A stretch of DNA of 45,458 nucleotides, taken from the IMG/VR virus record IMGVR_UViG_3300003323_000295, positions 1 to 45,458 of that record. One strand, 5' to 3'. The DNA is from a virus. Below the pieces are notes generated by a model. The model was given only the letters and a program-made list of their open reading frames with translations. It was not told where the DNA came from and ran no database searches. Of the stretch, positions 18,379 through 36,135 are shown one piece after another. The translations under genes were made by a program, and so were the position numbers. Numbering within the stretch: position 1 is the first letter of the stretch; the number at the start of each line of letters is the position of its first letter.

Positions 18379-18407
18379 CTGATTCCTTTAATCAGTCCTT
18401 AGAAGGA

Positions 18408-18458
18408 GCTGCGGCAGCCAGTAAGGTGCTGGTTTTCGGAAGCGATCCTAGCCGCAGC
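18408..18458 (-). other. Intergenic stem-loop after the tube gene
   Basis: GCTGCGGC and GCCGCAGC form an eight-base-pair stem with a 35-base loop between the tube stop and the chaperone start. There is no T run. A related element with the same stem core follows the capsid gene at 24207-24261. Confidence 0.6.
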
Positions 18459-24174: not shown

Positions 24175-24206
24175 GGTTTTTCCCTGAGAAAACCCCTGTA
24201 AAGAAG

Positions 24207-24261
24207 GCTGCGGAAACATGACAGGGACATGCTTGTCGGGCGCGCTAGCCCTATCCGCAGC
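24207..24261 (-). other. Intergenic stem-loop after the major capsid gene
   Basis: GCTGCGGA and TCCGCAGC form an eight-base-pair stem. Its flanks (CTTCTAA, CAGTT before, CCTTCT after) repeat those of the stem-loop at 18408-18458. Confidence 0.6.
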
Positions 24262-33941: not shown

Positions 33942-33963
33942 AAAAAGCCCGTTCAGCGCGGGC
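33942..33963 (-). terminator. Intrinsic terminator downstream of the tRNAs
   Basis: GCCCG/CGGGC stem with a seven-base loop followed leftward by TTTTTC. It closes the tRNA unit before the first protein gene of the late block. Confidence 0.78.
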
Positions 33964-33988: not shown

Positions 33989-34063
33989 TGGTTGCGGCAA
34001 GTGGATTCGAACCACTGACCTTCGGGGTATGAACCCGTTGCGCTGCCACTGCGCCATACCGCA
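33989..34063 (-). tRNA. tRNA-Met (anticodon CAT)
   Basis: Seven-pair acceptor (TGCGGTA/TGCCGCA, one T-G wobble), discriminator A and encoded CCA, four-pair D stem, anticodon loop TTCATAC (positions 32-38), and a five-pair T stem with TTCGAAT. The anticodon stem holds three consecutive G-C pairs (GGG/CCC) next to the loop, a hallmark of initiator tRNAs, but the 1-72 pair is T-A rather than the mismatch of bacterial initiators. Confidence 0.93.
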
Positions 34064-34067
34064 AAAC

Positions 34068-34142
34068 TGGAGCGGACTTCCGGGATCGAACCGGACTTCA
34101 CTGCTTGGAAGGCAGGTGCCTATGCCACTCGGCCAAGCCCGC
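34068..34142 (-). tRNA. tRNA-Gly (anticodon TCC)
   Basis: Seven-pair acceptor GCGGGCT/AGTCCGC, discriminator T and encoded CCA, GCC/GGC D stem, anticodon loop CTTCCAA with TCC, T loop TTCGATC. Only four bases separate it from tRNA-Met, so one precursor is likely. Confidence 0.93.
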
Positions 34143-34960
34143 ATGGTTGAGGGAATCACCGCGCTGGGTTACTCAGCCCATACGTCTTACGTGAGGGATA
34201 GCCTGTGCGCCGCATCCATGCGGCTGTGCGCTCTACCCTGTGGCCCGATGGGCGCTTACTGGGAAGACTTGGCGCATCCAAGTTCGGCTATCGCTGTCGC
34301 CCTCAATGGAACGGGCTAGCATGCGGCTGCGCGTCAAGCCACCAACCCCAAGAACAACGCGCTCCATTGAGGAGACTGGTTACGCCAGTCAAGCGGCCGA
34401 TTATTCCTTCGGCGTCGTGTCCGCCCCAGCGACGCGAACGGCCCTACCATTTCATCCGCTCCAGTGCTTTCGCAAAGCTAACGGGGTGCACACCATTGAA
34501 AGGCCCGCAACTGCAACTGTGAAGTCGTGGGCAGCGCAGAGGCGCGATCCTTTCATGCAAGCCGAGGGGCTGGCGCTGATCCCCAGCTTGGGCGACCTCC
34601 TCATCAAGCTCCCGCCGATCCATGCTATCCGACGATCATTGCAAGGCACGGCGTCCAAAGCCCAGCATCCGCGCCACTCGCGCGATCAGCACTCGCGCAT
34701 TCCCTCACAACTGCGTCATGCCCCGCGCATAGTGCGGTGGCCCCAGCAACAAGACCAAGCCCCAGTTCCCGGCTGTTGCTGTAGACGGGAGGAAGCCCAT
34801 GACGCATGTGTGAGGATCATCGGACGCTGATAACCGTATGCAGCCCAATGATTCTCAAATTCCCTCATTCAATCGCCGCAACCTGTTCGAAGCGGGTTCG
34901 CATTCAACGGCGCTGGCCGCAGTCTCGGCGATTGAATCAGGATCATCCGGACGGATGAAG
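34143..34960 (-). ncRNA. Candidate large structured noncoding RNA upstream of the tRNAs
   Basis: About 0.8 kb with no credible ORF. It contains nested and consecutive inverted repeats: 34867-34878/34926-34937 (12 bp, perfect), 34811-34820/34848-34857 (10 bp with one G-U on the plus strand), 34301-34310/34363-34372 (10 bp) enclosing 34329-34334/34357-34362, 34744-34751/34774-34781 (8 bp), 34943-34949/34952-34958 (7 bp), and 6-bp hairpins at 34209-34224, 34267-34283, 34374-34390, 34412-34435, 34680-34698. Size, ornate structure and adjacency to phage tRNAs recall the GOLLD and ROOL RNA classes. Strand is inferred from tRNA context; alternatives are a packaging site or origin. Confidence 0.55.
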
Positions 34961-34994: not shown

Positions 34995-35023
34995 TTGATT
35001 TTTGATAACTCTTTATCTATAGT
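34995..35023 (+). promoter_or_regulatory. Sigma-70-type promoter, rightward
   Basis: TTGATT at 34995-35000, 17 bases, TATAGT at 35018-35023. An imperfect copy of the operator palindrome (TGATAACTCTTTATCT, 35003-35018) covers the spacer. Confidence 0.6.
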
Positions 35024-35088
35024 CGCGCCTATCAGCTATTCTGTTATCAACAATCCCGACGAAGCGCTTAACAAGGAGGTTCCCGGCA

Positions 35089-35462: not shown

Positions 35463-35732
35463 TCGCGGGCAAAAAAAAGCGAGTTGCTCAAGCCGCCGTT
35501 TCAACTCTTCCGCAACAGTAGCGGCATGGCGAAGGTTTTCCTTCTCCGCCAAGGCCCCCATTGTCTTGTACTTCACTTCCCCGCTACGCGTCACATAGGC
35601 GATAAGTACCCCTTCGACATCGCCGGATTCGTAGGCATCTGCAAGATCCCTCAGCTCATCGCCTGGAGCGATATCATTAGCGCCGCTTGGGAACATTGGA
35701 ATTACGTTCGCTTGTCTTGTTCTGTGCGTCAT
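35460..35732 (-). CDS. Hypothetical protein downstream of the repressor
   Basis: 90 residues. The N-terminus NVIPMFPSGANDI and the acidic first helix (PGDELRDLADAYESGDVEGVLIAYV) match a small phage family often found near repressor or replication genes, of unknown role. Overlaps the repressor by 56 bases and is co-transcribed with it, so it would be expressed in the lysogen. An internal ATG at 35696 is an alternative. Confidence 0.65.
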   Translation of the reverse strand: MTHRTRQANVIPMFPSGANDIAPGDELRDLADAYESGDVEGVLIAYVTRSGEVKYKTMGALAEKENLRHAATVAEELKRRLEQLAFFCPR

Positions 35733-36135
35733 TGTCTTTTAGGGTAACTACCCGCCCCTTAGATTTTCCGGCTCGGGGCGCAGCCAGGTTGATTTGCCCC
35801 AGTACATCATCCCCTCCGTCTGGATTCTCTATCAACCGAAGAAACGCCGCAACAACATCCGTTACCGGCCGCGGCAACTTCAACAGGCGGCTGTGTACAT
35901 CTGCCGCCGCCATCTTGTGACCGTCTGGAATATGCGGAACGTCCATCCATCCATGCGGCTTTTTCATTCCATCTTCGAAGCGGTGAGCAACATCATCCCC
36001 GATGTTACGAAATCCACTCTTGCAATGGGAAATATAGACGCGCCCTACCCCCGTGCGCGCCGCAAGTTCGTTGATGGTCCCCGCCTCATTGATCAGCAGC
36101 GACAAGTTGAGTTGTCGTATCTCGTTCTGGTTCAT
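35677..36135 (-). CDS. CI-like phage repressor (HTH)
   Basis: 152 residues. Residues about 15-60 form a helix-turn-helix (LLINEAGTINELAARTGVGRVYISHCKSGFRNIG), with a FEDGMKKPHGWMD segment typical of phage Xre-type repressors. The C-terminal part is short, lacking the Ser-Lys peptidase residues of LexA-like repressors, so it may respond to something other than RecA-driven cleavage. Divergent from the early operon with operators between; start ATG lies at the predicted transcription start (leaderless). Confidence 0.8.
   Translation of the reverse strand: MNQNEIRQLNLSLLINEAGTINELAARTGVGRVYISHCKSGFRNIGDDVAHRFEDGMKKPHGWMDVPHIPDGHKMAAADVHSRLLKLPRPVTDVVAAFLRLIENPDGGDDVLGQINLAAPRAGKSKGRVVTLKDNDAQNKTSERNSNVPKRR

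Follow-up and report, generated by a model that had tools for sequence, protein, structure and literature searches.

A modular structured RNA on the minus strand beside two phage tRNA genes, and related arrays of exchangeable domains in other phages

Two large phage RNAs, GOLLD and ROOL, form cages of 14 and 8 subunits, respectively. We know of no function for either, and both have been described as whole, fixed RNAs. GOLLD is a large (~800 nt) noncoding RNA of phages and prophages, often located by tRNAs and made up of a conserved and a less conserved half, and ROOL is a large, ornate phage RNA that also occurs near tRNAs (PMC12286853). The RNA described here resembles GOLLD in being large, phage-borne, and adjacent to tRNAs, and ROOL in its size and tRNA neighbors, but it is assembled from small exchangeable modules found in phages of Burkholderiales and Xanthomonas. 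Two other phage arrangements resemble it in part. The lambda pR' leader (6S RNA), with its terminator tR', is a noncoding segment of ~0.2 kb that runs from promoter to terminator ahead of the late genes, a similar layout, but unlike the RNA described here it is not a multi-domain array. Phage tRNA arrays share with our locus two tRNAs and a common terminator, whereas the bulk of this unit is structured RNA other than tRNA.

A likeness to GOLLD and ROOL had been proposed when the locus was first read without database searches. It stands as far as size, tRNA neighbors, and phage setting are concerned but not at the level of family models: searches of the region for GOLLD, ROOL, OLE, and HEARO gave no match, and for ROOL this was so at every threshold used. 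Of 4227 Rfam families compared with the region, at the gathering score and at permissive E values (limits of 5 and 10), tRNA alone gave a credible match, and the above-threshold scan of the entire sequence added only int-alpA, outside the region. Among curated families, the nearest one present in kindred arrays is Proteo-phage-1 (RF03044), an 82-nt single module with no match here.

The window, by which we mean the whole stretch of DNA analyzed, comprises 45,458 nucleotides of the viral record IMGVR_UViG_3300003323_000295. Within it lies a noncoding stretch of ~850 nt with tRNA-Gly and tRNA-Met directly 3' of it. The unit lies on the minus strand, where it begins at a promoter-like site (35,026), takes in these ~850 nt and the two tRNAs, and ends at a terminator (33,942). 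The interval originally singled out, 34143 to 34960, falls inside this unit but is too short at both ends, missing the site at ~35,020 on one side and the tRNAs and terminator (33,963 to 33,942) on the other. The promoter-like site, GCGACTATAGATAAAG (35011 to 35026, minus), contains a probable -10 region and occupies the same place in the viral contig L030, where it matches apart from one leading base and the 50 nt after it diverge. It may act as a promoter, and we infer transcription from it, as we do the abundance and timing of the RNA. ARAGORN called tRNA-Gly (anticodon UCC) at 34068 to 34142 and tRNA-Met (anticodon CAU) at 33989 to 34063, both on the minus strand, with Rfam scores of 50.1 and 64.9 bits, respectively, and a pattern scan located the intrinsic terminator, GCCCGCGCUGAACGGGC-UUUUU, at 33942 to 33963 (minus).

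The portal, terminase large subunit, and other head genes are encoded on the minus strand below 33.4 kb, a repressor-like gene occupies 35677 to 36135 on the same strand, and replication and early genes start at 36.7 kb on the plus strand. Because close terminase relatives (93 and 84% identity) were found in Paraburkholderia genomes, the host of the virus probably belongs to the Burkholderiaceae. The two int-alpA RNAs (RF02996), at 18396 to 18458 and 24193 to 24261, both minus, sit in the late gene region with no adjoining integrase, and the same RNA is present in L008, L016, and L035.

The inverted repeats that had drawn attention to the region withstood inspection. The 12-bp stem (34867 to 34878 with 34926 to 34937) is perfect, as is a 10-bp stem (34301 to 34310 with 34363 to 34372) that has a 6-bp stem inside it; the 8-bp stem (34744 to 34751 with 34774 to 34781) was confirmed, the 10-bp stem with one wobble (34811 to 34820 with 34848 to 34857) is visible in the sequence, and a further 9-bp stem (34712 to 34720 with 34798 to 34806) had been overlooked. 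The excess of short hairpins is genuine: five perfect hairpins (at least 6 bp, loop of at most 7) compare with a mean of 1.26 (standard deviation, 1.1) in dinucleotide shuffles, at least five being reached in 2 of 200, and stems of at least 12 bp and at least 10 bp arose in 1 and 21 of 200 shuffles, respectively. The motif AGGATCATC(C)GGACG does occur twice, at 34813 and 34939, because both copies are the junction of a small hairpin with its linker. The judgment that the region holds no credible gene was likewise borne out; open frames exist mechanically, those tested had no PHROG match (best E = 0.4), and on that ground a coding explanation was rejected. Homologues of the region differ by swaps of entire modules.

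The strand, which the sequence-only reading had called unsettled, is now established as minus because of comparative evidence, a covariance model of the module X4 scoring 68.9 bits on the minus strand versus 17.8 on the plus. Folding energy was rejected as a strand indicator; with 20 shuffles per strand, the plus strand folds better (z = -4.9 versus z = -2.0 for minus) yet lacks comparative support. Since L030 keeps the same segment, the direction of the unit in the window is also minus, and array direction relative to late transcription is constant in the window, L030, and the Xanthomonas phage PBR31. We consider it close to certain that the minus strand of the region encodes a structured, functional RNA. 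The inverted repeats might conceivably act as DNA, forming a recombination hot spot or hairpins for protein binding or packaging, and both the exchange of modules by recombination and the nearby terminase would fit such a role. The G-U pairs, however, suit one strand, the X4 model scores high on that strand alone, the direction is constant, and the pseudoknot of X4 would be unnecessary in a DNA hairpin, so that we regard a DNA-level role as highly improbable.

From 5' to 3', all on the minus strand, the RNA opens with a small hairpin, UCAUCC-GUCC-GGAUGA (34943 to 34958), whose perfect 6-bp stem is followed by a CCU.A linker as in other units. Next is X1 (34862 to 34941), a multibranched hairpin (fold z = -5.3) whose closing pairs are the perfect 12-bp stem and CCU/AGG. 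It is 89% identical to L030 across 72 nt, with one compensatory pair, U-A to C-G. Another small hairpin, AUCAUUGG...CCGAUGAU (34816 to 34852), which shares its 3' junction GAUGAUCCU.A with the hairpin before X1, leads into X2 (34702 to 34815), a 114-nt hairpin domain running from CCUCACACAUGCGUC to GACGCAGUUGUGAGGG (fold z = -4.0). X2 has homologues in different surroundings, identical at 112 of 112 bases in the viral contig L120 and 87% identical in PBR31, and its outer stem reappears around another interior in the Burkholderia Lessieviruses BcepIL02 and CSP3. Y2 (34564 to 34706) is closed by GAGGG/CCCUC and carries a hairpin at either end, GCUGAU and GAUCAGC, the 5' one of which we keep out of strong claims, its pairing register being ambiguous. 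The intervening segment (34488 to 34563), for which a search found no homologue, has a candidate closing stem, UGAAAGG/CCUUUCA, and may hold an "X3"-type unit, a name that we have given to no unit.

Farther 3', B (34392 to 34489; core GUUCGCGUC...GACGCCGAAGGAAUAAUCGGCCGCU) is 92 to 94% identical in L030, L113, L114, L115, L117, and L118, and little covariation can be read in it because it is too conserved. The hairpin C, GACUGG-CGUAA-CCAGUC (34374 to 34390), which precedes a linker reading (C)CUUCA or CCUCA, has compensatory stems about a CGUAA or CGCAA loop in L014, L016, L030, L038, and L124. X4 (34300 to 34372), where the first of the 10-bp stems above had been noticed, consists of an 8-bp plus 6-bp hairpin with a 7-bp H-type pseudoknot, and Y4 (34149 to 34304), closed by GAGGG/CCCUC, encloses a four-helix sub-domain.

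The covariation test that had been suggested for this region revealed compensatory changes in the independent modules X4, Y4, and Y2, in pair counts that draw on four to eight sequences per module (30 for the S element discussed below) and ignore phylogeny. In the X4 alignment (window, L075, L084, L113, L124, and L126), 99.2% of cells were paired and 8 of 21 pairs changed on both sides; none of 500 shuffles equaled the observed covariation, and slid controls reached at most 44% paired. For Y2, 14 pairs in six sequences had 100% of cells paired, with 4 pairs changed on both sides; relatives occur in L008, L028, L035, L124, L128, and L139, and the closing stem reads GAGGG/CCCUC in the window and GAGAG/CUCUC in relatives. 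In Y4, 98.8% of cells were paired and double changes affected 9 of the 25 pairs; these counts come from an alignment that was fitted to the structure by the model and is thus biased in its favor, and double changes in the closing helix of Y4 are also plain without fitting (GAUAGCC/GGCUAUC, CCAAACC/GGUUUGG, and CGCAAUC/GAUUGCG). Models built without the window, from five X4 sequences (R1) and five Y4 sequences (R3), matched its minus strand at 68.9 bits (E = 4e-15) and 60.6 bits (E = 4.5e-12), respectively; since the X4 and Y4 relatives had first come to light through their resemblance to the window or to L030, these matches confirm homology and strand and are not discoveries. Matches of R1 in two Burkholderiales genomes, L155 and L156, were set aside as weak, that in L156 resembling chance; the weak X4-like match in L155 (1300 to 1650) lies in a hairpin-rich noncoding stretch.

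Comparison with L030, a contig whose terminase is 87% identical, indicates that the unit evolves by module exchange. The corresponding segment (L030 3640 to 4440) keeps the promoter-like site, X1, B, C, and Y4, and other structured modules fill the middle and the position of X4. BcepIL02 and CSP3 carry the same X followed by different Y domains, and L161 has two units in tandem. Side-by-side reading of the window and its relatives yielded an order that holds for most units. They begin with a small hairpin or with an S element of two hairpins; the linker CC(U)UCA comes next, then the hairpin domain X and a turn that reads UGAGGG or UGAAGG. Often a Y follows, closed by GAGGG/CCCUC or, in a compensatory version of this helix, by GAAGG/CCUUC. 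The window follows this order at X1, X2-Y2, and C-X4-Y4. The GAGGG strand could pair either with the linker, as part of X, or with CCCUC, as part of Y. Beside the arrays in L028 (3950 to 4420) and L030 (4482 to 5000) are small open frames that look, by eye, like HNH or homing-type endonucleases, a possible means of module exchange.

We read the region as a noncoding, multi-domain RNA of ~850 nt whose transcription, on the minus strand, would start at a promoter of its own immediately downstream of the repressor region and continue through tRNA-Gly and tRNA-Met to the intrinsic terminator. It is composed of repeated units (small hairpin, CCU(U)CA linker, variable X, UGAGGG turn, and mostly a GAGGG/CCCUC-closed Y) whose single domains phages exchange through recombination. 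The folded RNA itself may be the product, a scaffold or a particle of RNA or of RNA and protein made during infection, acting in the manner of GOLLD or ROOL, its domains serving for binding or assembly. We hold this scaffold or particle reading tentatively, at slightly less than an even chance. It is supported by the compensatory changes in X4, Y4, Y2, and the S element, by the window-free models that find X4 and Y4 on the minus strand, by the kept architecture and replaced middle of L030, the domain swaps at fixed junctions, and the tandem units of L161, and by the terminators at array ends, which lie within 260 nt in 12 of 18 loci versus 4.7% of random stretches. Size, tRNA neighbors, phage setting, and elaborate domains make GOLLD and ROOL the best functional analogy (PMC12286853). 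Against it, the module set varies strongly, where a symmetric particle would be expected to retain fixed contacts; the folding energy of the minus strand is only modestly beyond that of shuffles; the segment at 34488 to 34563 lacks a homologue; the arrays of the Lessieviruses BcepIL02 and CSP3 are early, ahead of ssb; and the GOLLD and ROOL models do not match. Because domains swap freely, a rigid symmetric cage is disfavored, and the possible roles include a scaffold, a decoy, and an antiterminator leader.

As a leader, the RNA would be a long 5' segment of the late operon, positioned like lambda pR'-6S RNA-tR', whose structures permit read-through of the terminator into late genes by put- or Q-like antitermination. 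The array separates the control region from terminase and has a terminator at its 3' end, and in PBR31 a Q antiterminator gene lies upstream of the copy there; these features fit this role, as does the fact that tRNAs can lie in the pR'-tR' segment of lambdoid phages. Yet arrays of 0.4 to 1.5 kb with very different module sets exceed the needs of an element acting on polymerase, the Lessievirus arrays precede ssb rather than late genes, and no antiterminator was recognized among the tested early genes of the window; we judge a leader unlikely.

Arrays or modules occur in IMG/VR soil contigs, Paraburkholderia prophages (L109/L133, from P. phenoliruptrix), BcepIL02, CSP3, PBR31, and the Bordetella phage PHB04, so that cultured phages offer direct tests. 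The plasmid records searched held no similar DNA, and exact patterns for the 12-bp stem pair and for the 3' end had no match in viral contigs. Many arrays, such as L002, L008, L016, and L120, have no called tRNA gene, which argues against a functionless tRNA-operon spacer in which structured filler, degraded tRNAs, and processing signals surround working tRNA genes, as do the identity of X2 in unrelated surroundings and the covarying pseudoknot of X4. Such a spacer, to which the tRNAs, degenerate tRNAs, and even tmRNA of these arrays and the two tRNAs and terminator at the 3' end of the unit lend some color, seems to us improbable.

A model of the S element matched 13 phage loci, mostly in one copy per phage, and 20 of 300 Burkholderiaceae genomes, mostly at one conserved chromosomal place with a terminator after it; the 30 matches had 99.6% paired cells and 31 double-changed cells in a fitted alignment. 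At L137 (~1440 to 1640) and similar loci in L135 to L154, a conserved intergenic stretch of Burkholderia chromosomes combines a hairpin with the S element, a CGUAA hairpin, and the terminator. This locus, which has no Rfam match, probably encodes an sRNA or regulatory RNA. The sRNA ncS35 is neighbored by an MFS gene or a terpene cyclase and by a hypothetical gene (PMC5760752), and the identity of the two was rejected on gene neighbors, the adjoining frame here reading, by eye from its translation, like a D-2-hydroxyacid dehydrogenase. A structured element shared by phage arrays and a conserved, sRNA-like host locus, together with the tRNA-like pieces inside several arrays, would fit a role of the RNA as a decoy or as several small regulatory RNAs bundled together, with modules that mimic host RNAs and titrate a nuclease, a regulatory RNA, or an RNA-binding protein of the host. 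The mostly single S copies of the phages and the window itself, where the S element is absent at the model threshold and only the CGUAA hairpin is found, weigh against a decoy, which we think quite unlikely.

Proteo-phage-1 matched two kindred arrays (L010 4407 to 4491 and L016 3749 to 3829) and seems to represent just one module of a larger RNA built from several. One module type is common to this orphan family and another to a host chromosomal locus. A broader reading, possible if rather doubtful, is that phages of Proteobacteria carry recombining RNA cassettes, with interchangeable and in part host-shared domains and accompanying tRNAs or tmRNA, that would form multi-domain particles or scaffolds in the infected cell; if so, Proteo-phage-1 would be one cassette of a shared stock. 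The arrays point to large virus RNAs of a class that is little known, though possibly described earlier, and that is comparable to GOLLD and ROOL yet evolves through domain swapping in phages of Burkholderia, Bordetella, and Xanthomonas.

A few observations concern the arrays individually. A hypothetical gene, orf016 (QIN95327.1), is annotated on the X2 module of PBR31 (L001 6513 to 6704); this 63-amino-acid gene was dismissed as a probable misannotation, having no family match (best E 0.13) and consisting of DNA that is an RNA module elsewhere. Segments of L010 (5540 to 5615), L014 (5680 to 5745), and L113 (4880 to 4950) resemble degenerate tRNAs, with T-arm motifs and CCA-like ends, and receive no call from ARAGORN. 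In PHB04, three tRNAs and a permuted tmRNA (L129 2062 to 2433) lie within a structured RNA array at 45.1 to 47.3 kb (L129), a stretch that is almost unannotated in the deposited record.
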